This document shows positions 6,771 through 43,414 of a stretch of 43,414 nucleotides of DNA, piece after piece (the first letter of the stretch is position 1; every line of letters begins with the position of its first letter). Origin of the DNA: Methanosarcina sp. Ant1. GTDB lineage: Archaea > Halobacteriota > Methanosarcinia > Methanosarcinales > Methanosarcinaceae. The notes beneath the pieces were generated by a model. That model saw nothing but the letters and a program-made list of their open reading frames with translations, searched no databases and was not told the DNA's origin. A program made the position numbers and the translations under genes. The stretch is taken from the NCBI GenBank assembly GCA_001714685.2, contig MDTP02000060.1:1-43414 (forward strand), in the 5' to 3' direction.

Positions 6771-6815
6771 TTCTTTTCTTTTCTTTTCTTTTCTTTTCTT
6801 TTCTTTTCTTTTCTT
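6771..6815. repeat. Simple repeat, nine TTCTT units
   Basis: Nine perfect TTCTT units fill 6771-6815. On the transcribed minus strand this is (AAGAA)9, starting three bases after the stop codon of the beta-CASP gene and lying upstream of the DUF2148 gene. Short perfect repeats of this kind are prone to slippage. Here it would alter an intergenic purine tract, not a reading frame. Confidence 0.95.
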
Positions 6816-6817
6816 CT

Positions 6818-8059: not shown

Positions 8060-8213
8060 AATAAAACCCCTTAAGAGATATTACAAAATTATTCTAGTTA
8101 AGTACCAAAAATTATTCGCTAATCTTAAATGTTGAGGTGAATCACCGAAAATCGGGTAGAGGAAATAAGGGAGTCGTCTTCCCGGTTCTTTCTCTGTCTT
8201 TACGTATTCCTTC

Positions 8214-10487
8214 TCAGCTATTTTCAATTGTTTCTAAGAGTTCAACGGTGTGGCTGCATGAGGTCTGCCAGTTTTTAATCTTCTTTACGCTGATCTTTAT
8301 CATTTTTGCGAGCTCAATAGCGTCGGCTTCTATCAGGGCTTCTACGCTTTTTATCCCTGCTTCCTCAAGTTTCCCTGCGGTAGCTTTTCCCACACCTTCG
8401 ATGTCCTTAATTGACTTCGGTCTTTCCTTTTTCGGCTGCTGAGCCTGCTCTTCCTTTTGGGTCTTCTGCCACTCAATGAAATTGCAATGTGAACAGCCCA
8501 GATCCCAGGGTCGTTTTCCGGTATTGATTATGCGGACATGGTGCAGCCCGTGCGCTTCACATAACTTATCGATAACTATAATTTGTCCGCTCTTTGGCAG
8601 AGGCAGGGAGAAGGTACAATTCGGATAATTGTTACAGCCTATGAAACGGCTTCCCCTCTTCGAGCGTCGGATGATGAGTTCGTTTCCGCATTCGGAGCAG
8701 TTACCTATGATCTTATCTTCCCTGAGACCTGCCTGGAGGGATTCTACAATTTTATCCCGGTTTTTATCGAGTTCCGAGAATACCTGCTTTAACATCTCCC
8801 GCGACTCTTCAAGGACTGCAGCCTCTTTGATTTTACCCTCTGCAATCTTATCCATATTCTCTTCAAGTAGCTTTGTCATGTCAGGTTTTGTGATTGTAGG
8901 AGAGTATTTTTCAAGGGAATCCATTACTGCAAAAGAGGTATTTGTGGGCTGCACGGGATTTCCGTGGATATAAGCTCTTGAATAAAGCTTACTTATTATC
9001 TCGTGCCTGGTTGCCTTTGTTCCTAGCCCCAGCTCTTCCATAATGTTGATAAGTCTTCCCTGCCCGTAACGGCCAGGAGGCTGGGTTTCTTTATCCAGCA
9101 TCTCTTTCTTTATCAATTTCAGGACATCCCCTTCCCGAAGTTCGGGAAATACCCTGTCTTCAGGCGCATTGTAAGGATAGTACCATCGCCAGCCAGGCTC
9201 AACCAGCCGTGCTCCGTTTGCCCTGAAATCTTCTTCATCGATATCCAGTCTCAAACGCATGGTTTCCCATTCGCTTGGTCCGGCAAAGGTTGCAAAAAAG
9301 CGCCTGACAACAAGTTCGTAAACTTTCCATTCATCCTCTTTCATGTCTGACTCTTTTGCAAGGGACGCAGGAAAAATGGGAGGGTGGTCAGTAGTTTCCT
9401 TTTTCCCTCGTGTAGGAACAAGTTCGGCTTTCTCAAGCAGGGCGATTGCATACTCTCTAAAGGGTCCTTCTTTGAAGATCTCGATCTGTGCCTTTAGATC
9501 CAGAGTATCCGGATAAACCGTATTATCTGTCCTTGGATATGAAATGTACCCGTTCGTATAGAGAGATTCGGCTATGCGCATAGCGTTTGAGGGGCTGAGC
9601 CCTATTGCGTTTGCTGCACTGATAAAACCTGTAGTATTAAATGGGGTAGGAGGCTGGTCAGTTTTTTTCCCGATTTCTATCTCCTTTAACTCTGCTTGTT
9701 TTCCAAGCTTCTCGAACACTTTTGCTGCTTCCTCTTTGTCCAGGAAGCGGCGGGTTGAATGCTGGGCAGAAAAACTTTCCCCTTTTTCAGTTTCAAGTTC
9801 TGCATTGATTTCCCAGTAAGGAGTAGGGACAAAAATATTTCTTTCTTTTTCCTTATCAACTATAAGAGACAGAGTTGGAGACTGAACTCTTCCTACGGAG
9901 AGGAACATTTTCCCGAGCCTGCCTGCTGCAAGAGAAATGTAACGGGTAAGGGCTGCCCCCCATACAAGATCAATGACCTGCCTGGAATGGCCGGCATCTG
10001 CGAGATTGAAATCGACATGTGTAGGGTTTGAAAATGCGGTTTCTATTGCTTTTGGGGTTATAACACTGTAGCGGACCCTGTCAAACGGAAAATCAGAATT
10101 CACCTTTTTTATGATATTGAGAGCTTCGACTCCTATTAGTTCTCCTTCCCGGTCGTAGTCAGTGGCAATCGTGACCCTGCTTGCCTCTTTTCCCAGGCTT
10201 CGAAGGGCAGTTACGATCTTCCGGTTGATAGGAGTTGTTATGATCTCGGCGTCGATAAGGGCTTTAGCATCGACTTTCTGCCAGTTATTGTACTCTTTAG
10301 TAAAATCGATTCCTACAATATGACCTGACAGCCCTACTACCACAGTCTCCTGCCTGTTCTCATCAGATCCGACCTCATACCTGTAGACGTCCACTCCGCT
10401 GACTCTATCCTTCTTAGGGGTTTTTGGAGCCAGAATCGCAGCTATCCTCCGTGCTGCTATATTTTTCTCCGTTACAATAAGATGCAT
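8214..10487 (-). CDS. topA: DNA topoisomerase I (type IA)
   Basis: It has 757 residues. The N-terminal TOPRIM domain contains IATDYDREGELIG. The cleavage/religation core carries MFLSVGRVQSPTLSLIV and the active-site tyrosine in SYPRTDNT at about residue 315. The C-terminal part has a four-Cys zinc finger (CSECGNELI...GCNNYPNC), a second Cys/His module (CEAHG...CSHC) and a helix-hairpin-helix segment (IEGVGKATAGKLEEAGIKS) near the end. It relaxes negatively supercoiled DNA by single-strand passage. The length and domain order are normal for the euryarchaeal enzyme. It starts at ATG 10487 and has about 200 intergenic bases on either side. Confidence 0.95.
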   Translation of the reverse strand: MHLIVTEKNIAARRIAAILAPKTPKKDRVSGVDVYRYEVGSDENRQETVVVGLSGHIVGIDFTKEYNNWQKVDAKALIDAEIITTPINRKIVTALRSLGKEASRVTIATDYDREGELIGVEALNIIKKVNSDFPFDRVRYSVITPKAIETAFSNPTHVDFNLADAGHSRQVIDLVWGAALTRYISLAAGRLGKMFLSVGRVQSPTLSLIVDKEKERNIFVPTPYWEINAELETEKGESFSAQHSTRRFLDKEEAAKVFEKLGKQAELKEIEIGKKTDQPPTPFNTTGFISAANAIGLSPSNAMRIAESLYTNGYISYPRTDNTVYPDTLDLKAQIEIFKEGPFREYAIALLEKAELVPTRGKKETTDHPPIFPASLAKESDMKEDEWKVYELVVRRFFATFAGPSEWETMRLRLDIDEEDFRANGARLVEPGWRWYYPYNAPEDRVFPELREGDVLKLIKKEMLDKETQPPGRYGQGRLINIMEELGLGTKATRHEIISKLYSRAYIHGNPVQPTNTSFAVMDSLEKYSPTITKPDMTKLLEENMDKIAEGKIKEAAVLEESREMLKQVFSELDKNRDKIVESLQAGLREDKIIGNCSECGNELIIRRSKRGSRFIGCNNYPNCTFSLPLPKSGQIIVIDKLCEAHGLHHVRIINTGKRPWDLGCSHCNFIEWQKTQKEEQAQQPKKERPKSIKDIEGVGKATAGKLEEAGIKSVEALIEADAIELAKMIKISVKKIKNWQTSCSHTVELLETIENS

Positions 10488-11272: not shown

Positions 11273-11794
11273 TCAGATGTAATGGCTCTGGATTTCTACG
11301 ATTTCAGTGCTGTTTTTCGCGGTCGAATATTCTTCAAGCGGCTCCTTATTCAGCTCAAGAAAACTGTGCCCCCAGTTAAACTTGGATAGGACTCTTTCAG
11401 CCTGCTCTTTGTATCCAAAAATATAGAGGGCTGCTGCAAATGCCTCTGCAGAGTTAAGTTTGCAGGGCCTTCCGAAATTCACAGGATTGCCCGCAAGCAG
11501 GTAAGGGAGAGCCCTGTGCTCAAGGTTCAGCTTCCCAAGCTCAGGAAAAATCCTTTCTACCTCTTCCCAAGAACAGTCAAGTACAATAATTCCCTTTCCG
11601 GGATCATCGGCAGGAGAAAGGGCTTTTTCTGCCATTGGGTCCAGCAGAATCGCTGATCTGGGCAGCCTTGAAACCTTGTCGTAAAGGCGGGCAAGGTCAA
11701 AGCGGGCCATTTTTCTTCCTGTGCATTTTTTCGGGTCACACTGCCCGGCATGGTAGATGTAAAGGGGAATATCCCTGTGCTTTGTTGGATTCAT
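11273..11794 (-). CDS. tsr3: 16S rRNA aminocarboxypropyltransferase Tsr3
   Basis: It has 173 residues and matches the DUF367/Tsr3 family. The N-terminal region [17 protein letters not shown] is typical, followed by [15 protein letters not shown], the SAM-binding-site region IIVLDCSW, and the strongly conserved [22 protein letters not shown] and EAFAAALYI. Tsr3 transfers the 3-amino-3-carboxypropyl group of SAM to a modified uridine of small-subunit rRNA near the decoding site. The length is normal for archaea. It starts at ATG 11794 and appears to be the first gene of a short minus-strand unit with the TIGR00725 gene. Confidence 0.92.
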
Positions 11795-12350
11795 CAGTGA
11801 TCCTCTGGAATCTGGGATTCTATTTTAACAGTTTCCTTTCCTTATTTACCTGTTTCCTTGTTTCCTTGTTTACCTGTCTTTTCTTTTATCTGTTTCTTTG
11901 TTTATCAGTATCAAGCCTTTATTCCTGGATAAAAGAGCTTTTTTGAGATTTAGTTATAAGTTATCTTATATCTAATGATTTATATATAATTGAATAACTC
12001 TCTGCTTCGCCTTCAGTCAAATGTGGAGAAGGTAATTGGAATTTATATCTAACAAAATCCGATCTCCAAAAACACAGGGTTAATTGAGGGTGAGTTGTGC
12101 ACATTAGAATTATAAGCAGTGAATTGCCCCGGGGAGAAGAGAGTGGTCCTCTTTGTGGAGGGGGAAGGCTTCTCTCTGCGACTCTAGCTAGTCTTGAGTG
12201 GGCATAAAATTATCATGGAAAGAGAAATCCCGTGCTTAGGGCCTGGAAAGAGAAATCCCGTGCTTAGGGATGAGTGACGTCTCTAGCTGTGCGCATGCCT
12301 GTATCTCGGTAGGGGCATTATCTGCATGACGAACTAAAAGAATTCGGAAG
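11795..12350. other. Intergenic region with a hairpin and tandem repeats
   Basis: A T-rich stretch with cctttccttatttacctg-like imperfect repeats occupies 11820-11910. At 12134-12174 an arm gagaag pairs with cttctc, enclosing an inner cctc...gagg pair, so a stem-loop could form in a plus-strand transcript leading into the HdeD-like gene. A 28-bp tandem duplication follows at 12216-12269. No gene was seen except a 19-codon frame at 12270 without a clear function. Confidence 0.5.
12216..12269. repeat. 26-bp sequence in tandem (28-bp period), IS605-end-like
   Basis: The 26-base string at 12216-12241 (tggaaagagaaatcccgtgc, then ttaggg) is repeated exactly at 12244-12269. The core aatcccgtgcttaggg resembles the foldback ends of IS200/IS605-type elements, whose right ends often contain a cccgtgcttta-type hairpin arm. 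No tnpA or tnpB remains nearby. The repeat is seen directly; the IS605 link is a guess from sequence style. Confidence 0.55.
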
Positions 12351-12986
12351 ATGGAACATATGGAACAACCAATTGATACTGATTCCAAAATAGAGTCTAT
12401 GGAACAACCAAATGATACTGATTCCGAAATAGAGTCTATGGAACAACCAATGGATACTGATTCCAAAATGGAGTTAGAAGTACTGCAGGCACCCTGGTGG
12501 GCGGTTCTTCTGGAAGGAATAATTGCTATTGTTATAGGCTTATTCCTGTTATACGAACCTGTAGTAACCACTATTCTGCTAATACAGATCCTGGCCATTT
12601 TCTGGCTAGCAGGAGGAATTGTTTCTGTTATAGGTGCGCTGATATTTCCGGAGAATCGGTTGTGGAAACTGCTTTCAGGTATCCTGAGCATTATTGCGGG
12701 AGTCCTTATACTGATGTATCCTATCTTCAGCCCTTTCATAGTTCTTACGTTCCTGGTTATCTTCATAGGAGCATGGGCTATTGTCAACGGTGCTGTGAAA
12801 CTTGCCTGGGCACTTAAAGGAGGAGGATGGGGCATGGGAATTCTTGGTGTCCTTACAATAATCCTTGGTTTACTCCTGCTAACTAACTCCCTGGTTGGAG
12901 CCCTGTTTCTGCCGTGGATGTTCGGCTTCTTCCTTATTATCGGGGGAATTGGAGCGGTTATCTGGGGAATTAAAATGAGAACCTGA
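12351..12986 (+). CDS. HdeD-family (DUF308) integral membrane protein with N-terminal 13-residue repeats
   Basis: It has 211 residues. Residues 4-42 are three near-identical 13-residue units (MEQPIDTDSKIES, MEQPNDTDSEIES, MEQPMDTDSKMEL) encoded by 39-bp repeats at 12360-12476. They form an acidic cytoplasmic tail. About six membrane helices follow in HdeD/DUF308 pattern (APWWAVLLEGIIAIVIGLFLL, ILAIFWLAGGIVSVIGA, LLSGILSIIAGVLILMYP). HdeD proteins are linked to acid resistance in enteric bacteria; their role in archaea is unknown. ATG 12351 has only a poor SD, and one of the repeat ATGs could serve as an alternative start. The small membrane-protein gene follows 40 bases later, suggesting an operon. 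Confidence 0.82.
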   Translation: MEHMEQPIDTDSKIESMEQPNDTDSEIESMEQPMDTDSKMELEVLQAPWWAVLLEGIIAIVIGLFLLYEPVVTTILLIQILAIFWLAGGIVSVIGALIFPENRLWKLLSGILSIIAGVLILMYPIFSPFIVLTFLVIFIGAWAIVNGAVKLAWALKGGGWGMGILGVLTIILGLLLLTNSLVGALFLPWMFGFFLIIGGIGAVIWGIKMRT

Positions 12987-13025
12987 AGAAGGATTTTTTC
13001 AAGACAAAAATAAGGAGACAAGAAT

Positions 13026-13405
13026 ATGGAAAGACCAATTGGTGTCACTATTTTGCCCTTTGTGGCTGTATTGCTGGCATTTTTAAACGCTATTGAATGC
13101 TACGGTTTCTTGGATTGTTACCCTTTCTAGGGCCTCTGAACATCCGTATTTTCAACCTATGGTATGCCCTGTTGTACGGCTTGCTCGCCTATATATGGGT
13201 TTGGCTGGCTCAGATGCTCTGGCAGGTAGATCCACAGGCTTGGATGTTTCTGGCTGTTATTACGGCATTCAATCTGTGCGTGGATTTTGTGCTGCTGGTT
13301 ACAGGCGGTTCATGGTATGACGTTAACATCTCAGTTATTATGAACGCCCTTATTCTCATCTATATCATGTTGCCGGGGGTGAGAAGGGCATTCGGGAAAG
13401 ATTAA
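13026..13405 (+). pseudogene. Small membrane protein, single frameshift
   Basis: A good SD (AAGGAG) precedes ATG 13026, and the frame reads MERPIGVTILPFVAVLLAFLNAIE before running to a stop. The rest of the protein (MLRFLGLLPFLG, about four hydrophobic segments, ending MLPGVRRAFGKD) is in the next frame from 13097. Restoring one missing base near 13091-13097 joins the two into a protein of about 126 residues with continuous membrane helices. MxRPIGVTIL is a common opening of small Methanosarcina membrane proteins of unknown function. Either the gene is broken or one base is missing in the sequence. Confidence 0.7.
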
Positions 13406-32117: not shown

Positions 32118-32421
32118 GGTCAGCGCCAAACCAATTTTCGAAAAACGATTTTTCTGCAGCTTTTTAATATATTTCCTTAACCCTTCCAACCTGACCATTC
32201 GTTAATTGAACTTTTATCCCATGCGGATGATTTGAAGAGTTGGTCAAAATTCTCTTTACAATGCCCTGGGTTATTTTTCCGGTCCTCTGGTCTTCTTTTA
32301 AAACGATCCCTACACTCAATCCTTCTTTAATGTTTGATCTGACAGTACCCTTGTTCATGGCAGAAAGTAAATTTGGAATTATATAAATCAGTACGTTTGA
32401 AAAATAGTAATTAATTTCGGT
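32118..32421. repeat. Segmental duplication, copy 1 (carries ywbE)
   Basis: About 300 bases, from ggtcagcgccaaaccaattt to aattaatttcggta, recur with high similarity at 34345-34650. The copy includes a whole YwbE gene plus its upstream and downstream flanks. The two copies are in the same orientation and bracket the PKD gene. Confidence 0.85.
32164..32358 (-). CDS. ywbE: YwbE-family (DUF2196) small protein, copy 1
   Basis: It has 64 residues: MNKGTVRSNIKEGLSVGIVL, KEDQRTGKITQGIVKRILT, then HGIKVQLTNGQVGRVKEIY. This is the YwbE/DUF2196 family of small beta-rich basic proteins, with a fold suggestive of nucleic-acid binding and no known function. It is full-length for the family. The other copy at 34391-34585 differs at only a few residues (K3N, N9H, I37F and the SSNHPHG loop). 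Confidence 0.88.
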   Translation of the reverse strand: MNKGTVRSNIKEGLSVGIVLKEDQRTGKITQGIVKRILTNSSNHPHGIKVQLTNGQVGRVKEIY

Positions 32422-32500: not shown

Positions 32501-33173
32501 TAATTTGAGGTTCAGAAGGTCGGTCCTCAGGAGCTGTTTGGGAACCTCCTCTTAAATAGAAGCTGAGAAGGCAGCTGGTAGGTAATTGAATTCAACAGTT
32601 GAACCATTCATTGGGAACCTGAGACTCTGTAAACCTGGCAGCAGGCATATTCTAAAGGAAAAACTATTATTTTTTAACAAGTTCGATAAATCAACAGCTT
32701 CTAATTTATATGGAAGAAATGTTTTTATAGAAGTAGGTCTTATTTATTTTACGTACTCTTAAAACTTTTTCATTAGTAATGTGGGGTAATTTCTTTGTGT
32801 TTTATGATATACATTCCAGCTTTTAACCTTAGTTTGACATCTCAGGTTAATTGCTGCAATTGATATCAAATGAAAAAGCATTGATTCATGCCTATGTTCT
32901 GAAAAAGTGAAGTGTACACAAAAACGCAGGACATACTTTTTAAGTTTGAACTGTCAGTTTTAAAAAAATATATAAAACTCACTCAATCATGTGAAAATAT
33001 ATCACTCTATTAAATCGGGGGGTTTAATTCGGAGGATTATATTTTCAGTGCCAGTGCGAATTGGATTTATGATCTGATAGCTTTGTAATATCCAATTTCT
33101 TTGGAAAATTTATGGTTGAGTGGACACTATGGAGAAATCTAATTCAAAAAATGAGAATATAGGAGGAAATCAA
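32501..33173. other. Upstream region of the PKD protein gene
   Basis: No gene is seen. A TATA-like aaaaatatataaaac at about 32966-32980 would give an mRNA with a long leader of roughly 170 bases before GTG 33174. The leader contains gggggg and ggaggat motifs. The rest has no recognisable feature. Confidence 0.45.
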
Positions 33174-34037
33174 GTGAACATAAAACAGAAAATCTTCATT
33201 ATATTAATCAGCATGATTTTATTATCTGCGACTGCACTTGCAGTCCCTCAAAACAATTCAAATGCTGGAACTCATCTAAAGGCCCCTGTTGCTGCTTTTT
33301 CTGCACACCAGACCTCAGGATACGCACCCTTGAAAGTAGCATTTACTGACAAAAGTACAGGATCTCGTACTTCATATAAATGGAGTTTTGGAGACGGTAA
33401 ATATTCAACAGTAAAAAATCCTGCGCACACATACACTAAAGCCGGAAATTACACAGTCAGCTTAAAGGTAAGTAACGCTGCCGGAAACAATACTGTAACG
33501 AAATCCAACTATATTGTTGTAAAAGCTTTGAAAGCCCCTGTTGCTGCTTTTTCTGCACACTCGACCTCAGGATACGCACCCTTGAAAGTAGCGTTTAGTG
33601 ACAGGAGTACAGGAATTCACACTTCATATAAATGGAGTTTTGGAGACGGGACATATTCAACAGCCAAGAACCCTGTACATAAATACAATAAAGCCGGAAA
33701 TTACACGGTCAGCTTAAAGGTAAGTAACGCTGCCGGAAACAATACTGTAACGAAATCCAACTATATTGTTGTAAACGCCTTGAAAGCTCCTATTGCTGCT
33801 TTTTCTGCACATCCAATTTCAGGGAAGGCACCACTGAAAGTATCTTTTATTGACAAGAGTACAGGCGTGCACACTTCCTGCAAGTGGAGTTTTGGTGATA
33901 ACAGCTTTTCAACAGAAAAGAACCCTCTACATAAATACACCAAAGCCGGAAATTACACTGTCAGCTTAAAAGTAAGTAATGCTGCAGGAAACAATACTAA
34001 AACGATGTCTAATTATATCGTAGTGAAGAGTAGGTGA
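33174..34037 (+). CDS. Secreted protein with three PKD domains
   Basis: It has 287 residues from GTG 33174, which has the SD AGGAGG seven bases upstream and directly begins the signal peptide MNIKQKIFIILISMILLSAT; ATG 33120 would add an unlikely hydrophilic leader. Three near-identical PKD domains of about 85 residues follow, each with APVAAFSAH, the SYKWSFGDG turn and KAGNYTVSLKVSNAAGNN, joined by KSNYIVVKALK linkers. PKD repeats act as beta-sandwich spacers in archaeal surface and adhesion proteins. No catalytic domain or membrane anchor is present, so it may bind other envelope proteins. The near identity of the repeats implies recent internal duplication. Confidence 0.9.
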   Translation: MNIKQKIFIILISMILLSATALAVPQNNSNAGTHLKAPVAAFSAHQTSGYAPLKVAFTDKSTGSRTSYKWSFGDGKYSTVKNPAHTYTKAGNYTVSLKVSNAAGNNTVTKSNYIVVKALKAPVAAFSAHSTSGYAPLKVAFSDRSTGIHTSYKWSFGDGTYSTAKNPVHKYNKAGNYTVSLKVSNAAGNNTVTKSNYIVVNALKAPIAAFSAHPISGKAPLKVSFIDKSTGVHTSCKWSFGDNSFSTEKNPLHKYTKAGNYTVSLKVSNAAGNNTKTMSNYIVVKSR

Positions 34038-34344
34038 AGATCTTATCTTGAAAAATATAAGAATTCAGGTCAATAGGTAATAGGCGTACAGGATTCGGAT
34101 CTGTCAAACGTTGTATTTCCTGCAGTGTTACAGAAACAGATCTTAACCCTATTACCAAAATTTTCACCAGGAATTTTTGGCTTCTGGAACAACTTCCTAT
34201 GTTATCAAAAACGACTTTTAGAACTAGGGAAATCAGGAAGAAATGAAGCATATCAGCAAATTAAAATACTCGTTTTTTATAGTTCCATTGTAATGGGAGC
34301 GGTGACTCGACACTAGTATTCTGCGGCGTTTCCCATCGGTCACC

Positions 34345-34650
34345 GGTCAGCATCAAGCCAATTTTCGGAAAACGACTTACCCTCAACTTTTTAATAAATT
34401 TCCTTAACCCTTCCAACCTGCCCATTCGTTAATTGAACCTTTATCCCATGCGTATGAGTTGAAGAATTGGTCAAAAATCTCTTTACAATGCCCTGGGTTA
34501 TTTTTCCGGTCCTCTGGTCTTCTTTTAAGACAATCCCTACACTCAACCCTTCTTTAATGTGTGATCTGACAGTACCGTTGTTCATGGCAGAAGGTAAATT
34601 TGGGAATATATAAATCAGTACGTTTGGAAAAAAATTAAATTAATTTGGTA
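34345..34650. repeat. Segmental duplication, copy 2 (carries ywbE)
   Basis: This is the second copy of the roughly 300-base segment at 32118-32421, in the same orientation, from ggtcagcatcaagccaattt to aattaatttggta. Substitutions are scattered, and the gene inside remains open, which suggests both copies are under selection or the duplication is young. Confidence 0.85.
34391..34585 (-). CDS. ywbE: YwbE-family (DUF2196) small protein, copy 2
   Basis: It has 64 residues, differing from copy 1 at only six or so positions (MNNGTVRSHIKEG, KRFLTNSSTHTHG). The central KEDQRTGKITQGIVKR and the C-terminal LTNGQVGRVKEIY are identical. Function is unknown, as for copy 1. The next gene to the right is hsdR, transcribed away from it. 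Confidence 0.88.
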   Translation of the reverse strand: MNNGTVRSHIKEGLSVGIVLKEDQRTGKITQGIVKRFLTNSSTHTHGIKVQLTNGQVGRVKEIY

Positions 34651-34876
34651 ACAGTACAACCTTACTGGCTTATCCAGACGTTCTTGTCCCGCTCGCGAAG
34701 CGAAGCGGTTTGTTCATGTAAAAATGAATAAAAGTATGCGTAGAATAGGTCGGATCAAAATTCGTAGCAGGTATTGATATCAGTATAAAACTCTAACTTA
34801 TTTATACAAATAAATATAATATGTGGTAAAATTTAACTAATAATCTAAAAAGCCTACTAATTATGATGGATGTACA

Positions 34877-37558
34877 ATGTCTGACCTTAATGAGTCTGAG
34901 ACACGGGAAAAGCTCATAAATCCGATGCTTGTTGCTGCAGGGTGGGATATAGTTTCATACGATGAGACAAAAGGACTGAAAAATTGCAATAACTGTGCAA
35001 TTAAGGAGTATCCTACTAAATTTGGACCTGCAGATTATGCGCTTTGTGTTGGAGGAAGAATCCTTGGAATTGTTGAAGCAAAGAAGGTGAAGTCTGGTAC
35101 ACAAAGTGTTTTAACGCAGGCGGAAAGGTATTCACGCGGTCTTCCTGGTAGTCCTTTCAATTTTAATGGATATCGAGTTCCCTTTTTATATTCAACAAAC
35201 GGAAAACAGATCCAGCATCATGATGTTCGTCATGCTCTTAGCCGTTCGAGACCAATATTCGGATTTCATACGTCTGAGGCGCTGGTTGAGAAGTTTAATT
35301 ACGACTTTGAAAAGAGAAGTGCCAAATTTTTTGATATACCTGATAACACAAGAATGAGACCCTATCAGCGTGAAGCCTGTGACGCCATAGGACACGCTAT
35401 CATTGATCGGAAACGGGCAATGCTGGTTGCAATGGCTACCGGAACCGGGAAGACATTCATGACTGTCAATCTCATTTACCGTTTAATGAAGGCAGGTGTT
35501 GCAAAAAGAGTCCTGTTTCTTGTTGACAGAAGAGCACTTGCTGCACAGGCTGTGAGAGCGTTTTCTTCTTTTGAAACCGAACAGGGGTTGAAATTTGACA
35601 AAACCTATGAGGTCTATAGCCAGCGATTTCAAAGAGGGGATCTGGATGAAAACGAAGCTTTTGATTCAAATTTGATTCCTGAAGCTTACCTTACAGACCC
35701 AAAGCCAGAGCACAGTTTTGTATATGTATCTACAATCCAGCGGATGGCCATCAACCTTTTCGGAAAAACCTCTGCATTATCATGTAGCGAGGAGCCTGAG
35801 GATGAGGACGCTGGGCAACTCGATATCCCAATACATGCTTTTGACCTTATCATTGCTGATGAATGCCACAGGGGATATTCTGCACAGGAAGTTTCTGTAT
35901 GGAGAAATACCCTTGACCATTTTGATGCCATCAAAGTAGGGCTTACAGCCACGCCTGCTGCTCATACTTATGCATACTTTAAAGATATTGCTTACAGGTA
36001 CAGCTATGAACAGGCTGTTCAAGATGGCTATCTAGTTGACTATGATATTGTTGCATTGGAATCAAGCGTTCGCATGAATGGAATATTCCTTCGTGAAGGT
36101 GAAATGGTTGGGGTTATAGATCCCGAAACCGGGCAAAGTAAAATAGACATGCTTGAAGACGAACGTGAGTTCTCAGCTGAGAAAATAGAGAAGGAAATAA
36201 CAAATATTGATTCTAACAAGAAAATCCTTCAAGAGATCAAACGTTATGCTGAAGAGCATGAAGAAAGATACGGGCGTTTTCCAAAGACTCTGATTTTTGC
36301 AGTGCAAGACCTGGCAAATTCTTCGTCTCATGCTGATCAAATAGTTGATCTGGCAAGAGATATCTTTGGCAGAGGGGATTCGTTCGTCCAGAAAATTACA
36401 GGTAAAGTTGACCGTCCTTTGCAGAGAATCAGGGAGTTCAGGAACAGAAAAGAGCCGGGAATTGCAGTAACTGTTGATCTTCTATCAACAGGGGTTGATA
36501 TTCCGGACATTGAATATATTGTGTTTTTGAGGTCTGTTAAGTCCCGTATCCTTTTTGAACAGATGATTGGACGCGGTACACGCAAAGGGGAACATTATCC
36601 AGATAAGTCACATTTTGTTGTTTTTGATTGCTTTGGTGGAACCCTTTTTGATTACTTCAAAGGGGTTACTGGTGTGACAGCCGAACCGCCCAAAAAGGAA
36701 GTAAAACCTATAAGAAAGGTTATTGAGGATGTCTGGAATAACCGGGACAGGGCTTACAATGTGCGTGTCCTGACAAAGAGACTAAACAGAATTGATAAGG
36801 AAATGAGCGGGGAAGCTCGGGATATGTTCAGCGCTTTTATACAAAAAGGCGATCTGAATCGTTTTGCGATCTCGCTTGAAAGGCGCCTCTCGGAAGATTT
36901 CACAGGGACAATGGAGACCCTGAGGAATCCTGATTTTTTGAACCTGCTTGACAATTATCCCCGTCCATCAAAAACGTTTCTTGTGGATTATGGGATAAGG
37001 GATGTGGTTTCATCCACCTGGATTGTGAGAGATGCTGCAGGTAATGAGTATAAACCGAAAGATTATCTGAGCATTTTTTCCGAATTTGTAAAAGAGAATT
37101 CTGAAAAGATTGCGGCAATTGGCATCCTTCTTGACCGCCCTCAGGATTGGAATACCGATGCACTTGGAGATTTGAAAGAGAAACTTGAATCTTCTCAGCA
37201 GCGGTTTACTATTGAGAATCTGCAAAGAGCTCATAAGGTAAGCTACAACAAAGCGCTTGTGGATATTATTTCGATGATCAAGCACGCTGCCCGTGAAGAG
37301 GAGTCTTTGTTGACGGCTGAAGAGCGCGTTAGCCTTGCTTTTGACAGAGTAACCGTGGGAAAACATTTTACACCTGATCAGCATCTATGGCTTGACCGAA
37401 TCAGGTCGCATTTGATTGCAAACCTCTCTATTGATAAAGAGGACTTCGAATTCATTCCTGTGTTTTCCGATTACGGCGGCTGGAATAAGGCTAACCGTGT
37501 TTTTGAAGGCCAGCTTTCAACTTTGATTTCAGAATTTAACAGGGCAGTTGCAGCATGA
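34877..37558 (+). CDS. hsdR: Type I restriction endonuclease, motor/nuclease subunit HsdR
   Basis: It has 893 residues. The N-terminal PD-(D/E)xK nuclease is marked by GPADYALCV and GIVEAKK. The SF2 translocase has Walker A MATGTGKT at about residues 186-193, the DECH box (IADECHRGYS) at about 328, motif III-like GLTATPAAHT, and later motif VI-like QMIGRGTR. A C-terminal EcoEI-R-type region binds the HsdM/HsdS core. It cuts unmethylated DNA after ATP-driven translocation. Length is normal, with no frameshift. Its stop overlaps the hsdM start (ATGA), so the three hsd genes form one operon. Confidence 0.95.
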   Translation: MSDLNESETREKLINPMLVAAGWDIVSYDETKGLKNCNNCAIKEYPTKFGPADYALCVGGRILGIVEAKKVKSGTQSVLTQAERYSRGLPGSPFNFNGYRVPFLYSTNGKQIQHHDVRHALSRSRPIFGFHTSEALVEKFNYDFEKRSAKFFDIPDNTRMRPYQREACDAIGHAIIDRKRAMLVAMATGTGKTFMTVNLIYRLMKAGVAKRVLFLVDRRALAAQAVRAFSSFETEQGLKFDKTYEVYSQRFQRGDLDENEAFDSNLIPEAYLTDPKPEHSFVYVSTIQRMAINLFGKTSALSCSEEPEDEDAGQLDIPIHAFDLIIADECHRGYSAQEVSVWRNTLDHFDAIKVGLTATPAAHTYAYFKDIAYRYSYEQAVQDGYLVDYDIVALESSVRMNGIFLREGEMVGVIDPETGQSKIDMLEDEREFSAEKIEKEITNIDSNKKILQEIKRYAEEHEERYGRFPKTLIFAVQDLANSSSHADQIVDLARDIFGRGDSFVQKITGKVDRPLQRIREFRNRKEPGIAVTVDLLSTGVDIPDIEYIVFLRSVKSRILFEQMIGRGTRKGEHYPDKSHFVVFDCFGGTLFDYFKGVTGVTAEPPKKEVKPIRKVIEDVWNNRDRAYNVRVLTKRLNRIDKEMSGEARDMFSAFIQKGDLNRFAISLERRLSEDFTGTMETLRNPDFLNLLDNYPRPSKTFLVDYGIRDVVSSTWIVRDAAGNEYKPKDYLSIFSEFVKENSEKIAAIGILLDRPQDWNTDALGDLKEKLESSQQRFTIENLQRAHKVSYNKALVDIISMIKHAAREEESLLTAEERVSLAFDRVTVGKHFTPDQHLWLDRIRSHLIANLSIDKEDFEFIPVFSDYGGWNKANRVFEGQLSTLISEFNRAVAA

Positions 37559-38979
37559 GCGATATTGTACAGAAATTATGGGGTTTTTGCCATACTTTAC
37601 GGCATGAAGGTATCGATTACGGCGATTATATCGAACAAATTACATACCTACTTTTTTTGAAGATGGCAGACGAGCGGGGGATCAAACTCCCCGATGCCTG
37701 CGACTGGCAATCCGTTAAAGAAAAATCAGGAACCGAACTCACTGAACATTATAACGATGCGCTTCGGACACTTGGTAAGCAGGAAGAGCTCCTTGGTGAT
37801 ATCTTTGCAGGTGCTCTTTCACGTTTTCACAATCCTGTGAGCCTTAAGAAGATTATTTCACTTGTAGATGAAACCGATTGGACAGGGCTTGATATTGATG
37901 TCAAAGCTATGGCTTTTGAAGGCCTTCTGGAAAAAGCAGCAAGCGAAGGCAAGAAAGGAGCTGGACAGTACTTTACCCCAAGAATTGTAATCCAGACAAT
38001 CGTAAGGTGTACAAAACCCGACCCCAGAGGCCACCGAGATTTTTCATTTATGGACCCAGCATGCGGTACAGGCGGCTTTCTCGTCTGTGCCTATGAATGG
38101 CTGAAGGCTATGACAGGAGGCGGAGCTCTTGACCGCGATCTAGCAAAACTTATCCGCTACAGGACTTATTTCGGGCAGGAACTTGTGGAACGTCCTAGAA
38201 GGCTTGCCCTTATGAACCTCTACCTACACAGCATCGAGCCTGAAATCAAGCTCGGAGATTCCATCTATGAAATCCCGGACTCAAAAAGATTTGATGTTGT
38301 GCTCACAAACCCTCCTTTCGGGACAAAAGGCGCAAACCAAGCCCCTGTCCGTGAGGATTTTGTTATCGATACCTCAAACAAGCAGCTCAATTTCATCCAG
38401 CACGTTATGACCATCTTAAAACCCGGCGGCAGAGCCGCAATCGTTGTCCCTGACAATGTGCTTTTTGCAGACAAGGCAGGAGAGGTTTTCAAGGTGCTCT
38501 GTGAAGACTGCGACCTCCACACTGTCCTGCGCCTTCCAGACGGCACATTTACACCTTACTCCCCAGGCACCAAAACCAATGTGATATTTTTCACGAAAGG
38601 TATCCCCACAGACCAGACGTGGGTCTACGACTGCCGGACCAACGTCCCTAAGATCACAAAAAAAGATCGCCCACTCACAAAAGAACACTTTGCAGAGTTT
38701 GAAAAATGCTTTGGCATCGACCCTAACGGCAGGGCAAAACGCGAAGAAAAAGATTCCCAGGAAGACCGCTGGCGCAAATTCCACATCTCCGAACTCAAAG
38801 CCTGCGACTACAAAATCGATTCACTGAAGTGGCTAAGGGACGATTCCTTAGGCGACACTGACGGCCTTCCCGATCCTGAAGAGCTTGCAGCCGAGGCAAT
38901 CGATGAGCTTGAAGCGGCACTAGGTGAGTTGAATGCGATTCTTGATTTGATGGGGAATGGTTATGCAGCAGAAGAGTAA
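37555..38979 (+). CDS. hsdM: Type I DNA methyltransferase subunit HsdM
   Basis: It has 474 residues. The N-terminal HsdM helical domain (LWGFCHTLRHEGIDYGDYIEQITYLLFLKM) is followed by the catalytic domain with MDPACGTGGFLV (SAM site, about residue 166) and LTNPPFGTKG (catalytic NPPF, about residue 252). The GQYFTPR segment before motif I is typical. It is an N6-adenine methyltransferase acting with HsdS. It is only distantly similar to the HsdM at 697-2217, so the two loci are not duplicates. It overlaps hsdR by 4 bases and hsdS by 23. Confidence 0.95.
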   Translation: MSDIVQKLWGFCHTLRHEGIDYGDYIEQITYLLFLKMADERGIKLPDACDWQSVKEKSGTELTEHYNDALRTLGKQEELLGDIFAGALSRFHNPVSLKKIISLVDETDWTGLDIDVKAMAFEGLLEKAASEGKKGAGQYFTPRIVIQTIVRCTKPDPRGHRDFSFMDPACGTGGFLVCAYEWLKAMTGGGALDRDLAKLIRYRTYFGQELVERPRRLALMNLYLHSIEPEIKLGDSIYEIPDSKRFDVVLTNPPFGTKGANQAPVREDFVIDTSNKQLNFIQHVMTILKPGGRAAIVVPDNVLFADKAGEVFKVLCEDCDLHTVLRLPDGTFTPYSPGTKTNVIFFTKGIPTDQTWVYDCRTNVPKITKKDRPLTKEHFAEFEKCFGIDPNGRAKREEKDSQEDRWRKFHISELKACDYKIDSLKWLRDDSLGDTDGLPDPEELAAEAIDELEAALGELNAILDLMGNGYAAEE

Positions 38980-40378
38980 ACTGCCGGAAGGGTGGACTTG
39001 GGCAGATATGAGTGACATTTTTGTTTGGGCAAATGGAAAAAGTCTACCAAAAAAGAATATGGAAAGTGGAAATTATTTAGTATATGGTGGAAACGGTATT
39101 AATGGACATCATACCAAATGGTTATCCTCCGAAGAATGCATTGTAATTGGGAGAGTTGGTGCTAACTGTGGAAATATCCATTTAGCTAAATCAGAATCTT
39201 GGATTACAGATAACGCTATATATTCCTCCTGGTCATCAAAAAATATATCTTTGAAATATTTTCTATTTGTTCTTTCAAATTGCAAATTAAACGAGTATTC
39301 AAGTGGGTCTGGACAACCTTATGTGTCTCAGAAAACCCTTGCTTCACAAACCATAATGTTACCACCTTTTGCCGAACAGCACCGCAATGTTTCAGCTATT
39401 GAAGAACTTTTTGCCCGTCTGGATGCAACAAATGAAAAGCTTGACCGGGTGCTGGAGATCTTGAAGAAGTTAAGGCAATCGGTTCTTACTTCTGCTTTTG
39501 ACGGAAAGCTAACCGAGGATTGGCGGATTATATTTCAGAACTCAAATGGGAAAAACGAAATTTTTCAGAAAAATATCCATGTTAATTCAAGTTACTTATC
39601 TGAAAAACCAATGATTCCTGATAATGAGCTTTTACCCATTTTGCCAAATAGTTGGTTTTGGGCTACAATTGAGCAGTTAGCCTCTATAGAACCTCGCTCT
39701 ATCCAAAGTGGTCCATTTGGAAGTAATTTGCTTCATTCCGAATTTCAAGAAACGGGGGTTTTAGCAATTGGAATTGATAACGTTCTTTATCGAAGCTTTT
39801 CATTAGGTAAAGAGCATAGAATCAGTAATGAAAAATACCACGAACTGAAAAAGTATACTACAAGGCCATTGGATGTCTTAATTACTGTGATGGCTACTGT
39901 AGGAAGATGCTGTGTGGTTCCTCAAGATATTGAAACAGCGATAATCACAAAACATGTTTATCGGATCACTCCAAACAGAGAGGTTATTTCGTCTTACTAT
40001 TTAATGAATGCATTAAGTGGCGCTGCAACAGTTAAAGAGCAAATTGATAACCAGATTAGAGGACAAACACGCCCTGGAATAAACGGCAAAATTCTGAAAG
40101 CGACCTCAATTCCTCTTCCTCCCCTCCCCGAACAGCAAGAAATCGTGAAGCGTATAGATGCACTCTTCGCTTTTGCCGATTCGATTGAAGCAAAAGTTAA
40201 AGCGGCAAGGGAAAAGACAGAGAAATTAAGGCAGTCTATTCTTGCAAAGGCTTTTTCCGGAGAGCTTGTGCCGACAGAGGCTGAGATTGCAAAAAGAGAA
40301 GGCAGGGATTATGAGACGGCTGAGGTTTTGCTTGAAAGAATTAAGGAAGAAAGAAGGAAGAGTGGGAAAAAACGATAA
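38957..40378 (+). CDS. hsdS: Type I specificity subunit HsdS
   Basis: It has 473 residues with two target-recognition domains (about 1-150, starting LPEGWTWADMSDIF, and about 215-395, starting LPNSWFWATIEQLA). Each is followed by a conserved coiled-coil spacer: LKKLRQSVLTSAFDGKLTEDWR in the middle and TEKLRQSILAKAFSGELVPTEAE near the end. These recognise the two halves of a bipartite DNA site. The C-terminal helix (YETAEVLLERIKEERRKSGKKR) is repeated in broken form at 43117-43360. It starts at ATG 38957 within the hsdM end (ATG 38963 is also possible). Intact. Confidence 0.94.
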   Translation: MVMQQKSKLPEGWTWADMSDIFVWANGKSLPKKNMESGNYLVYGGNGINGHHTKWLSSEECIVIGRVGANCGNIHLAKSESWITDNAIYSSWSSKNISLKYFLFVLSNCKLNEYSSGSGQPYVSQKTLASQTIMLPPFAEQHRNVSAIEELFARLDATNEKLDRVLEILKKLRQSVLTSAFDGKLTEDWRIIFQNSNGKNEIFQKNIHVNSSYLSEKPMIPDNELLPILPNSWFWATIEQLASIEPRSIQSGPFGSNLLHSEFQETGVLAIGIDNVLYRSFSLGKEHRISNEKYHELKKYTTRPLDVLITVMATVGRCCVVPQDIETAIITKHVYRITPNREVISSYYLMNALSGAATVKEQIDNQIRGQTRPGINGKILKATSIPLPPLPEQQEIVKRIDALFAFADSIEAKVKAAREKTEKLRQSILAKAFSGELVPTEAEIAKREGRDYETAEVLLERIKEERRKSGKKR

Positions 40379-40414
40379 GTTCTATACTATTTTGAAGTTC
40401 AATTTCTTTCCCCT

Positions 40415-42697
40415 TCACTTTTCGAGAACGGATGGTTGTGAAGCCTCTGATGAGAGTTGGGGTTGATAAGCTGGAGCTTGATTCTCAGTTGAAATACCGG
40501 AAATTGATATATTTGGCTCATTTATTGGGGGCTGGGTAGTTTCAAATATTTTTCCAAAGATTACTTCAAACTCAGTTTTTTCATTCTTTTGTCCTTCATC
40601 GTCCTGATTTTCATTTTGGTGGTTATTAACCAAAGGAAAAATTTTTAATACACTTTCTCTATCTGGGAGAAGTGCACAAGCATTAATCGCTTTTGAAGGC
40701 TTGTCTTCACCATAAACCCATGGTGGATAATAATCTTCTACAGTGCCTTTCGAAAGAACGTATATGTTCTCATCTCTCAAAGAAGATAAAAGAACATCTT
40801 TAGATATAATTTTATAATCTTCACTTTGGAGAATTTGTTTGCGTGTATTTTTTTCTTCTATTTCAAAAAGTAACTTTATCTCGCGAATCTCATTTTCACT
40901 TGGAATATTCCCCAAGCTTAACATTTCACATAACTCTTTTAATCTCTGATAACGTTGACGCCACGTATATTTTTCAATAAGTGCTTTGATTTCATCCTTA
41001 TTTGGAGATCCATCTATATTTTGATCAACAGCTATGTCATCAACTTCATTTATTAACTGACTATGAATTGAATTAGTGCGCTCACTTACTCCAATTTTAC
41101 TAAAACCACCGACCAAAATATCAAGGTCTAAAATGGCGTGTACATCTATTTCAAAAGAATTAAAGAACTTTCTATATCTTTGGACGCTTCCTTTACCATT
41201 AATCTTTATGAGAGGTATGTTTTTCCTATTGAAATCCCAATCATTGTTTAAAGTTTTAGCCACATGGTTAAAAAAATATACATCCGAATCTCCTTCAACT
41301 AAAACTACTTTATTTGCGAAAAAAGCAGCACAATTATTTTCATAACAAATTAACTGAAATAAGTCTTTAGTCGTATTATTGTGAAGATCGATACAAATCG
41401 AGTCTGAATAGGGTTTTGTATTGCTTTCATACACTTTTTTCATTTTGACAAATGTATTTGTGGAAGTCGATGAGAAGAAAATAGGAGAGTGAGTTGTGAC
41501 TAACACTTGGTTTGATTCCGAAATAATGGAAAGAGTATCGAATAGTATTTTTTGAGCTGCCGGATGAAGATATAACTCAGGTTCTTCAAAAAGAAATAAA
41601 TGTCGCTGAGGAGGATTTTCCTCTTTTTTGGACTCTGATTCTTCGTTATCCAATGAATTTAATAATTTTGGTCTCCCTTTCATCTCAACATAGCTTCTTA
41701 ATAATGAAAAAGTTACGGCTCTTTTTAAACCATCACCTTTAGAATCAATCAACCCTCTTGTACCATCATCAACGTATATCTGAGCGGTAGAAAGCAGATC
41801 TTTGAGTTCTATTGGTGGTATGTAAAATTCAATACTTGAATTTGGAAAATTTTCTTTAAGGTAAGCACTTACTAATTTTTCTATTTCTTTTACTTCTTTA
41901 AGCCGCTCGTCTGGACGACTTTCTTCAATATCAGGTCTGTTAAATAGAGTTGTTATTTTTCCAAAAGATTCAACAATGTCTTTAACTGGTTCTGATCCTT
42001 CGATTTCTTTGTGAAATAAGGAAATAATTTTCCCAAATGTAGCGGATTCCTTTGTTTTCACATCATCACTAATATCTTTTACAGCTTGGATGTAATAAGG
42101 ATCAGGCAATAACGTTTTAATTGTAGATTCTGAAATTGGCAACTTAATATCTTTTTCTTCACGTTGACTACTAGACATATCTTCGATTATTGAATACACA
42201 ATTTTCCTAGCATCCATTTGAGTTTTTACTTCCTCAAAAGAGTCCTTCCATTGTGGAAGATAATTTGTCATAGCAATTTTGATATCATTACCTTTTTTGC
42301 CACGTAAAATTTCAGCAATTTTAGACTCATCAAATCTTTCATCTAATGGCATTAATTTTTTATAGCAAAGATTTATTGAGCCATCAACCTCATAGCGTCT
42401 GACTAATGTCAGTTTGTTATCAATTATTATTTCAAGAATCTTATTCTTTTCTTCGTCTTTAACCTTAGATAGATCGCTTTCATCTATGTTCAATTCTGCT
42501 TCAATACGAATAGACTTTTTACTGTCATAATAATCAGTCTTGTTAATTTTGGAACCTGTTATAAATAAGCTTAGAGCTAATAAGGTTGAAGATTTTCCAC
42601 TATTATTCTCCCCAACAATACAAACAAATCGAGATAATGGCAAATAAACATCTCTGAGTCCTCTGTAATTTTCAATTTTTATTGAGTTGAGAAGCAT
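40415..42697 (-). CDS. OLD-family ATP-dependent endonuclease (AAA ATPase + TOPRIM)
   Basis: It has about 760 residues from ATG 42697 (SD AAGGGAT; TTG 42715 lacks one). The RecF/ABC-type ATPase has MLLNSIKIENYRGLRDVYLP and Walker A GENNSGKSS at about 29-37, then a long helical insertion. Walker B follows as HLFLFEEPELYLHPAAQ, with VLVTTHSPIFFSS. The C-terminal TOPRIM nuclease shows VVLVEGDSDVYFF and ILDLDIL. OLD nucleases act in phage exclusion; class 2 forms pair with a UvrD-like helicase (Gabija), but none is present here. It converges with hsdS, 36 bases apart, as part of a defence cluster. Confidence 0.9.
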   Translation of the reverse strand: MLLNSIKIENYRGLRDVYLPLSRFVCIVGENNSGKSSTLLALSLFITGSKINKTDYYDSKKSIRIEAELNIDESDLSKVKDEEKNKILEIIIDNKLTLVRRYEVDGSINLCYKKLMPLDERFDESKIAEILRGKKGNDIKIAMTNYLPQWKDSFEEVKTQMDARKIVYSIIEDMSSSQREEKDIKLPISESTIKTLLPDPYYIQAVKDISDDVKTKESATFGKIISLFHKEIEGSEPVKDIVESFGKITTLFNRPDIEESRPDERLKEVKEIEKLVSAYLKENFPNSSIEFYIPPIELKDLLSTAQIYVDDGTRGLIDSKGDGLKRAVTFSLLRSYVEMKGRPKLLNSLDNEESESKKEENPPQRHLFLFEEPELYLHPAAQKILFDTLSIISESNQVLVTTHSPIFFSSTSTNTFVKMKKVYESNTKPYSDSICIDLHNNTTKDLFQLICYENNCAAFFANKVVLVEGDSDVYFFNHVAKTLNNDWDFNRKNIPLIKINGKGSVQRYRKFFNSFEIDVHAILDLDILVGGFSKIGVSERTNSIHSQLINEVDDIAVDQNIDGSPNKDEIKALIEKYTWRQRYQRLKELCEMLSLGNIPSENEIREIKLLFEIEEKNTRKQILQSEDYKIISKDVLLSSLRDENIYVLSKGTVEDYYPPWVYGEDKPSKAINACALLPDRESVLKIFPLVNNHQNENQDDEGQKNEKTEFEVIFGKIFETTQPPINEPNISISGISTENQAPAYQPQLSSEASQPSVLEK

Positions 42698-43116
42698 AGT
42701 ATCCCTTTTTCTCAAAATTTATTGAGCAACGACCCAAAAATTAATTTTTATTTAAAAATGATCATCGAGATAAAAACATTCAATTGAATACACACTTTTT
42801 ACTGAATGTATAAATATATATTGTATCTGTCAACATCGTGTAATTTCTTTAACATCTGATAATTAAAAAGTTTAATATTACCTTGACTATGTCACATTAC
42901 ACGGTAAAGCGTCATCATTAGATCTCGTATGTCAAAGATATCGTTCGTAGCGAAATCGATAACAGCGATTGGAGTAACTGTCTAATCTGACAAAGTCAAG
43001 TTACTACATACAGTCAATAACAACTTAAGCAGATTTTTAGTTTCAAAGTTCACCCAAAGCTCAAGTCGCTCCTTTGAATTTCGTATTGTGAATAATCAAT
43101 CAAGTCTCTAATTATT
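42698..43116. other. Intergenic region upstream of the OLD gene
   Basis: AT-rich, with the OLD promoter expected near 42760-42830 (aatgtataaatatatattgt is a TATA-rich stretch). No gene is seen. The 60 bases before 43117 show no similarity to hsdS, marking where the duplicated hsdS tail begins. Confidence 0.45.
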
Positions 43117-43414
43117 CAGGGATTATGAGACGGCTGATGTTTTGCTTGAAAGGATAAAGAACCTGGATTCCGCTTTTTTAGGCACATAAACATCTATTGA
43201 TACCGAATTATGTGCTTAACCTTAACTGCATGAAACCAAGGCCCGAATTTCGAAACTACGAGTATCTGACATTATGACCTAGTGGAGCTATGTATATGCG
43301 TTTAAAATATGGGAACTCAGGAAAGAAAGAGAGAGGTAAGAGTGGAAAAAATCAATAAGCATGATGCTATTTTCAGATTCAATATCTTTTCTTTTTTCAT
43401 TTTTCTGTAAAGGC
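43117..43414 (+). pseudogene. hsdS: Second hsdS 3' end, interrupted by about 160 bp
   Basis: 43117-43161 matches the end of the intact hsdS (cagggattatgagacggctg, then a gttttgcttgaaaggat-type segment; compare 40303-40347). After an unrelated insert of about 160 bases, homology resumes at about 43324 (gagaggtaagagtgg... through the stop codon and the 3' flank; compare 40350-40428). Translated, it gives DYETADVLLERIK ... ERGKSGKNQ-stop. All upstream parts of the gene are missing. The insert has no obvious inverted-repeat ends. Confidence 0.85.

Follow-up and report, generated by a model that had tools for sequence, protein, structure and literature searches.

In Methanosarcina the 3′ end of hsdS, the specificity gene of a type I restriction-modification operon, is probably a recombination joint at which defence modules are inserted, swapped and lost, leaving behind a duplicated gene end (a tail). 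The stretch analyzed, hereafter the window, is the 43,414-nucleotide contig MDTP02000060.1 of Methanosarcina sp. Ant1, i.e., one entire contig (G000:C60) of a 4.3-Mb draft genome, whose sequence stops at 43414. As the original prediction stated, a gene of the OLD family lies there between two hsdS 3′ ends. Beyond the window, we consider it likely, on balance, that throughout the genus defence modules have been exchanged, time and again, at the hsdS 3′ end. A tail-cargo-tail arrangement was observed in 12 of 30 Methanosarcina genomes; one chromosomal site holds a single tail in one genome and two different cargos between tails in others; and a tail copy of genome G005 is a mosaic whose 3′ part goes with its cargo, a gene for a HepT-like protein.

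The OLD gene and the two hsdS 3′ ends of the window

The features of the window on which the argument turns are the following:

34877..37558 (+), hsdR; Pfam HSDR_N, ResIII and EcoEI_R_C, PADLOC REase_I
37555..38979 (+), hsdM; Pfam N6_Mtase and HsdM_N, PADLOC MTase_I (4e-163)
38957..40378 (+), hsdS, complete, with two target-recognition stretches; Pfam Methylase_S (two stretches), PADLOC Specificity_I
40273..40428 (+), hsdS 3′-end repeat, copy 1; the last ~105 bp of coding sequence and ~50 bp of 3′ flank
40415..42715 (-), OLD-type ATPase/TOPRIM gene (Pfam, PADLOC), with a TTG start at 42715 and an in-frame ATG at 42697
43117..43161 (+), hsdS 3′-end repeat, copy 2, first half, truncated on its 5′ side
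43162..43321, 160-bp dispersed element within copy 2, with imperfect inverted ends CCTGgaTTCC/CCTGagTTCC
43322..43414 (+), hsdS 3′-end repeat, copy 2, second half; profile match to 43403

The genes hsdR, hsdM and hsdS stand together at 34877-40378 (+) as a type I restriction-modification operon, and the OLD gene follows on the opposite strand, with tail pieces on both sides. Its protein shows the architecture of the OLD family, an AAA_15-type ATPase (Pfam, 4e-40, residues 2-408) followed by an OLD-like_TOPRIM domain (6.5e-19, residues 460-527). The best PADLOC profile was Old (1.5e-87), not GajA, and no GajB helicase was found beside the gene up to the contig end at 43414, so that, as far as the contig reads, the locus does not qualify as a Gabija system. 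Judged from its sequence, OLD is likely an anti-virus gene, with predicted nuclease and antiviral functions. At E 1e-40 it had relatives, 28-34% identical, in three other genomes among 392 of the phylum. The G+C content is 0.31-0.33 in bins fully inside the gene and 0.29 in the bin running past its start, whereas that of hsdR and hsdM is mostly 0.42-0.49. Apart from OLD, 40378-43414 contains no open reading frame (ORF) longer than 89 aa (ORF minimum, 80 aa). The OLD stop codon (40415-40417) falls within the copy-1 repeat, where the profile match ends at 40428, and thus the cargo reading frame extends into the joint.

By pairwise alignment the two copies have 40303-40409 of copy 1 in common. 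The coding part (40303-40345 against 43117-43159, 43 bp) is 93% identical, with three differences, and the 3′ flank (40343-40409 against 43323-43389, 67 bp) is 76% identical, with 16 differences; this change from 93% to 76% beyond 40345 is weak evidence on its own. With R1, a sequence-only profile made from 24 tails (window copy 1 among them, copy 2 not), the first half of copy 2 matched model positions 31-74 (43117-43160, E 7.8e-8) and the second half model positions 70-150 (43322-43403, E 1.7e-7) in a search of 572 kb. The recurrence of 40303-40428 at 43117-43414 that had been claimed thus holds for both the coding end and the 3′ flank, but not as one block, because the 160-bp element splits copy 2. 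This element is bordered by a 6-bp target duplication (AAAGAA, at 43156-43161 and 43322-43327) and has 14 related stretches elsewhere in the genome, several of them partial or just 70-80% alike.

The original prediction also placed the entry of OLD within a duplicated hsdS. Copy 2 comprises just the last ~75 bp of the hsdS coding sequence plus the 3′ flank; within 34001-43414 HsdS matched its own gene alone, with no hsdS body 5′ of copy 2, and elsewhere in the draft genome it found just partial matches of 26-42%. As copy 2 has no body and the ORFs between tails in relatives are not hsdS, a duplicated complete gene was ruled out, and so were, for the intervals examined, tandem hsdS genes behind clustered tails. 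Nor can the second tail belong to a separate complete hsd operon past the window: copy 2, on the (+) strand, is the 3′ part of a gene, so that the body of such an operon would stand 5′ of 43117, inside the window, where it is absent. With no second target-recognition domain, and copy 2 being the gene end alone, this is not a phase-variable hsdS locus, and no inverted repeat of at least 25 bp was found in 33000-43414. The contig end at 43414 is the position where many other tails have a G+C-rich hairpin. Many tails have this conserved palindrome (like GGCCGCCCGCTTCGCGGTCG) in their 3′ flank, just past the hsdS stop codon; it is perhaps a terminator or a break-prone site.

Tail pairs and their cargo across Methanosarcina

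A DNA search with the hsdS end gave matches in 24 of the 30 genomes of the genus, and the R1 profile detected tails in 26. Two tails on the same strand within 4.3 kb of each other were found in 13 of the 26 tail-bearing genomes, i.e., in 12 of 30 once the pair of G017, which belongs to another hsd type, had been left out; split-tail pieces (the second piece in G003 and that of window copy 2) were merged before counting. Random placement of the same numbers of tails gave a mean of 0.05 genomes with a pair and a maximum of 2 in 5000 trials. Seven of the genomes with the arrangement are assembled in one or two contigs (G001, G003, G004, G005, G009, G028 and G029). Because nine of the 12 pair genomes have no hsdR or hsdM like those of the window in the stretch fetched, the pairing pattern is wider than type I loci.

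In all mapped pairs copy 2 is the 5′-truncated copy, and in the relatives it starts within the last ~230 bp of hsdS. In window coordinates, and placed to within some tens of bases, the starts lie at ~40146-40200 in G001, G009, G024 and, after MNT/HEPN, G028; at 40250 in G028 after M19; at 40267-40271 in G004, G005 and G029; at 40301 in G023; and at 40303 in the window, so that they spread over ~160 bp in at least four zones (~40146-40303). A 5′-truncated copy 2 with a variable start is what would remain if one side were joined by homology and the other at varying points.

The 12 pair genomes hold 16 intervals between consecutive tails, and 11 of these contain known or candidate defence genes, as judged by PADLOC on the ORFs scanned or by similarity. 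The cargo was as follows:

window: OLD
G006 and G028: OLD-like gene and PDC-M19 pair
G004, G023 and G029: PDC-M19 pair
G025: M19A alone
G001 and G028, and broken in G006: MNT/HEPN of PDC-M05 type
G024: PDC-S01
G005: gene for a 261-aa HepT-like protein (Pfam support only)
G009: M48 peptidase
G001: AIM24 and serpin
G003 (two intervals): 267-aa ORF; 255-aa ORF

The second G006 interval is delimited by a weak tail remnant (E 0.0085) and the first intervals of G006 and G028 by remnants at E ~1e-4; these two genomes are near-identical here and their intervals are not independent. The 267-aa ORF of G003 is an ordinary neighbour of that site, found also in G005 and G029.

At E 1e-3, PADLOC profiles matched 9 of 14 scanned interval ORFs and 2 of 19 flanking ORFs (Fisher p 0.0019), in a comparison in which the ORFs were chosen by us and are not independent, the MNT/HEPN pair having been scanned from two genomes. 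The flanking ORFs were nearby ones of at least 100 aa, 19 picked by hand from those available. Of the interval ORFs, representatives were scanned; similarity served to assign the M19 genes of G004, G006, G025 and G029 and the MNT gene of G006. The inside count excludes the IS605 transposase of G006 (which matches Cas12f profiles), the L090 ORFs and an ORF of G022 outside any tail interval, which had no PADLOC match; the 267-aa ORF of G003 stood outside the scan, and its G005 counterpart, scanned as a flank, gave no match. The HEPN matches were weak (E 1e-4 and 7.5e-6).

Seen from the cargo, all nine PDC-M19A genes in the 30 genomes (E <=1e-40) have a tail piece no more than 4 kb away, eight by profile and that of G009 (2538673-2539530) by a DNA match at 2540111-2540198 alone. 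The same holds for all four MNT genes (E <=1e-10), one of which is a fragment, in G003. The yardstick for these associations is that the profile yields at most five tail pieces per genome, and the comparison is made without an unrelated control gene.

Several details of these intervals were also recorded. In G028 the modules stand in series: tail remnant, OLD-like gene and M19, tail, MNT/HEPN, tail. G006 has an IS605-type transposase gene (OrfB; L061 6369-7571) within its MNT/HEPN slot, which in G028 is intact. In G023 a second fragment of an M19B 3′ end lies past tail copy 2 (L068 7117-7312, turned orientation), as if it came from a former tandem tail-M19 unit.

Among the 30 genomes, HsdM of the window type (at least 92% identical) is present in G000, G009, G022 and G023 alone; other HsdM proteins are 47-48% identical. 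The operons of G009, G022 and G023 are the closest relatives of that of the window, with protein identities of 89-93% for HsdR and 92-95% for HsdM. In G009 an M48 peptidase gene and in G023 a PDC-M19 pair lies between two tails 3′ of hsdS, and no OLD relative was found in the stretches fetched from the three genomes. The upstream flank of the window resembles L076 (G022) and L077 (G023) only in repeats and in the last ~130 bp before hsdR, and thus the chromosomal sites of these two operons differ from that of the window. A locus without OLD, which the original prediction had expected from a comparison of strains, was therefore found in three like operons, but for G022 and G023 at other chromosomal sites; and its proposal that recombination loads defence genes beside type I operons is supported by the other cargos between tails in like operons, except for the full hsdS duplicate that it invoked, which is not supported.

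A wider survey of named genomes took in 80 loci with an HsdM relative, the best among 108. In 59 of these an ORF of at least 250 aa stands just after hsdM, and 54 of the 59 match the window HsdS; in eight of the 59, less than 500 bp past the candidate hsdS was available, hardly enough for a repeat to be seen. The locus's own hsdS end was clearly repeated downstream only in L077 (= G023) and L090 (Methanoregula sp. E9_concoct.bin.36), with weak repeats (E 5e-4 to 0.008) in L080 (opposite strand), L102 and L129. As controls, the first 80 HsdS residues had no downstream match and the middle 80 had three weak ones (L088, L092 and L109). With just two clear cases among 59, the idea that prokaryotes at large have the repeat wherever this operon occurs was rejected. 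In L090 the repeats at 11562 and 13142 enclose a 461-aa ORF (11668-13053), downstream of a GmrSD-type gene; this ORF had no Pfam or PADLOC match and is a candidate for a defence gene of a new type.

One site in several states and a mosaic tail

A site that has no window-like hsd operon was found with one tail in G003, as tail-HepT-tail in G005, as tail-M19-tail in G004 and G029, and with M19A in G025. The upstream flank of the single G003 tail matches that of copy 1 in G005, G029, G004 and G025 and that of the G027 tail (on a short contig); its downstream flank corresponds for more than 1 kb to the copy-2 side in G005 and G029, and for its first ~225 bp to sequence in G004 and G025. Positions 3002-4008 of G003 correspond to 3934-4953 of G005 (93.4%) and positions 3938-5173 to 6264-7486 (93.9%), so that the single tail of G003 has two counterparts in G005, which stand ~1.3 kb apart. 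In the same way, G003 3445-4063 and 3942-5268 match G029 4386-5005 and 7400-8723, with the M19 pair in between. The alignments overlap at the site by 71 bp (G005) and 122 bp (G029). In G003, further tail copies lie ~1.5 kb and ~2.9 kb downstream of the single tail.

Copy 1 of G005 was then compared, in six bins from the 5′ side, with the G003 tail and with G001a, the tail that stands before the same HepT-like cargo at another locus (the cargo is 95% identical over 840 bp). Identities to G003 were 55/60, 53/60, 54/60, 31/35, 19/35 and 18/35, and identities to G001a were 47/58, 54/60, 52/59, 29/35, 28/35 and 29/35. Copy 1 of G005 is therefore a mosaic: its 5′ bin and upstream flank are G003-like, and its two 3′ bins are G001a-like. 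Since the middle bins do not discriminate, the switch lies somewhere in ~40190-40340 (window-equivalent). In G029, copies 1 and 2 agree at 33/36 and 35/35 positions of the coding end (68/71) and then at 19/35, 25/35 and 18/30. On its left the M19 module ends sharply, but at the very stop codon of the gene, and no argument for a defined end was therefore drawn from this edge.

In five genomes (G003, G004, G005, G027 and G029) a homologue of a stretch that lies 5′ of hsdR in the window stands before the first orphan tail:

34388..34733 (+), 5′ of hsdR; a repeat dispersed in many copies through the genus (34388-~34633), followed by another ~100 bp

This homologue joins hsdS sequence from ~40129-40160, directly in G003, G005 and G029 and within ~25 bp in G004 and G027. 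The simplest reading of these junctions is that hsdRMS would once have been present and was deleted, its end being left as a joint still in use; caution is needed, given that 34388-34633 is a dispersed repeat in the genus. The idea that orphan tails are mobile elements was dropped because of the hsdR-upstream sequence in front of them, and deletion scars fit the first tails better; they do not account for the second tails.

Some neighbouring repeats were also observed. The ~245-bp repeat dispersed in the genus stands just 5′ of hsdR (34388-34733) and again 2 kb earlier (32161-32404), and in relatives it is often found directly 5′ of orphan hsdS tails. The middle tail copy of G003 (L058 5404-5757, turned orientation) is split by ~186 bp, with profile positions overlapping on both sides, which is probably another insertion into a tail. 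In G029, ~256 bp lie directly before copy 2 (L074 7142-7397, turned orientation); this stretch has an inverted relative in the G005 locus, is absent from G004 and is probably another dispersed element. Upstream of the operon, three 252-bp direct repeats at 33254-34009 (86% and 74% identical to the first) encode the PKD domains of a putative surface protein (33120-34037).

Joining of modules, rival explanations and known systems

The joint would consist of roughly the last 80-230 bp of the hsdS coding sequence plus the 3′ flank, and the cargo of short defence or toxin-antitoxin modules. A module could arrive with the far 3′ end of a tail, and a crossover within the conserved tail would join it to the resident gene, leaving hsdS with an intact end and the resident tail on the far side as the 5′-truncated second copy; in the window the module would be OLD. 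A circle could integrate through a single crossover, or a linear fragment could be joined by homology at one of its ends and illegitimately at the other. The joining would be carried out by host homologous recombination rather than by some recombinase, and cargos other than HepT would also bring a tail end; the direction of change at any one site, gain or loss, is what we infer, and OLD itself may, by analogy with the other loci, have entered by tail recombination. A broader proposal, which we advance tentatively and lean slightly against, is that the hsdS 3′ end is a general exchange joint, which persists as an operon-less orphan, can move with cargo and shuffles non-mobile defence genes between loci and species in a cassette-like manner, by host recombination without an integrase.

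A number of findings weigh against the hsdS end as a joint. The window copies share just 43 bp at 93%, which is short for efficient homologous recombination, and no OLD-free allele of the window's own chromosomal site was found among the genomes searched, so that the route of OLD is argued by analogy. G022 has the operon and one tail, with no second copy in the stretch fetched. Four of the 16 intervals are without sign of defence (AIM24 and serpin in G001, the 267-aa and 255-aa ORFs in G003 and the M48 peptidase in G009), the HepT of G005 is backed by Pfam alone, and one of the flanking ORFs of G009 is itself a defence gene (DrmD, 2e-48). The single tail of G003 could be the outcome of loss by recombination between tails and not an original empty site. 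From one locus to another, what lies between tail and cargo is not alike, whether the cargo is M19 (G023 compared with G004 and G029) or MNT (G001 compared with G028); a cargo-specific tail end is seen for HepT alone, and for M19 and MNT either the flank was later lost or the joint was made elsewhere. In other genera of the family, 12 of 81 genomes had one profile match and none had two at E 1e-6, with a profile trained on Methanosarcina and stricter filters.

The variable M19 and MNT junctions would also fit a passive origin, in which several type I operons were deleted, each leaving its hsdS 3′ end, and the cargo is whatever stood between dead operons. The abutment of hsdR-upstream sequence and hsdS tail in the five genomes named above is what deletion of hsdRMS predicts, although the partly dispersed nature of that sequence weakens the point. 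Passive scars do not predict one tail in G003 against two in G005 and G029 with 90-94% identity on both sides of the insert, nor the mosaic copy 1 of G005, nor the near-identical coding ends of the G029 copies, and we regard this explanation as unlikely. Chance similarity or an assembly artefact, which is suggested by a contig that stops inside copy 2 and by the misjoining of draft assemblies at repeats, is extremely improbable in view of the two copy-2 halves, each at E <2e-7 in the 572-kb profile search, and of the recurrence of the arrangement in seven genomes of one or two contigs.

Short modules with direct repeats on either side, standing in series in G028, together with the conserved hairpin just past the stop codon in many tails, recall a dedicated recombinase site like integron attC, with the cargos as true site-specific cassettes. 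No site-specific recombinase or integrase was recognised among the interval ORFs scanned (the rest of the genomes was not searched), and the IS605-type transposase of G006 sits in a broken slot; the copy-2 starts fall in at least four zones and some copies have no hairpin, so that no fixed core is seen. We consider such a site highly unlikely, and on these grounds the cargos do not qualify as integron cassettes. It is also very hard to credit that short insertion elements moved the cargo, with the 160-bp element and the following one marking a composite transposition:

42878..43003, dispersed element, ~126 bp long, whose inverted ends read CTTGACTwTGTC; eight near-full copies (88-95%) and partial ones elsewhere in the genome

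Both window elements are dispersed repeats, one with a target duplication, and dispersed stretches with relatives in other compared loci occur near copy 2 in G029 (7142-7397) and within the G005 interval (5879-6109). In the window, however, the two elements do not flank OLD but stand together on one side of it, and the second, which interrupts copy 2 and has a 6-bp duplication of its own, is therefore a later arrival; the G029 element is absent from G004, which is otherwise collinear in M19 and copy 2.

How defence islands collect genes without mobility functions of their own is an open question, and with the hsdS end as a joint such joints become visible here as gene-end repeats, as one site with a single tail or two fillings, and as a mosaic repeat. 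A search rule follows, i.e., genes between two hsdS tails in Methanosarcina are defence candidates; those without a known defence role include the 261-aa HepT-like gene (G005) and the 255-aa ORF (G003), to which the 461-aa ORF of Methanoregula may be added. Cassette-like variation in E. coli restriction genes was reportedly described by Sibley and Raleigh in 2004, and a preprint of the PADLOC group is said to report immune operons with defences embedded in them. Atack et al. in 2020 reportedly dealt with type I loci in which recombination between duplicated hsdS genes switches the specificity; the present loci are like them in having repeated hsdS sequence next to the operon, and unlike them in that copy 2 is direct, has no target-recognition domain and cannot alter specificity.

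No published description of hsdS 3′ ends flanking defence genes was recognised, judged by titles and the starts of abstracts, with subscription literature mostly outside. An archaeal survey gives more than four type I systems per Methanosarcina genome, and the parts of it covered contain nothing on hsdS-end repeats (PMC10609329). As far as the parts consulted of the report on the enteric immigration control region show, variable defence genes stand there too beside or in place of restriction genes, but its borders are yjiA and yjiN, and here they are copies of the 3′ end of the restriction gene (PMC12707154). Homology-facilitated illegitimate recombination has been described, in the sections available to us, for three naturally competent bacteria and for E. 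coli conjugation (PMC3240628); if one end were joined by homology and the other illegitimately, a complete copy 1 and a 5′-truncated, variable copy 2 would likewise result, and for Methanosarcina this process, described in bacteria, is invoked by analogy.

The closest comparison is insertion with long, variable target duplication, which, according to the portions seen, was found by Nobusato et al. in H. pylori and is often linked to restriction-modification genes (PMC3031569, PMC1643837). At the orphan-tail site G003 differs from G005 and G029 by an insert between direct repeats of the target, and these repeats are long and variable, as the overlaps of 71 and 122 bp and the ~160-bp spread of copy-2 starts indicate. 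As in H. pylori, so far as those portions go, a module is present or absent between strains, the direct repeats are long and variable, there is a link to restriction genes, and unequal crossing-over is possible. In contrast to what they describe, the target here is the end of the restriction gene itself or its orphan, the cargos are various, lie at various loci and are other defence genes rather than restriction genes, and one copy 1 has a cargo-associated 3′ end. What is new relative to the known target duplication is the end of a restriction gene as the target, used by several defence cargos.

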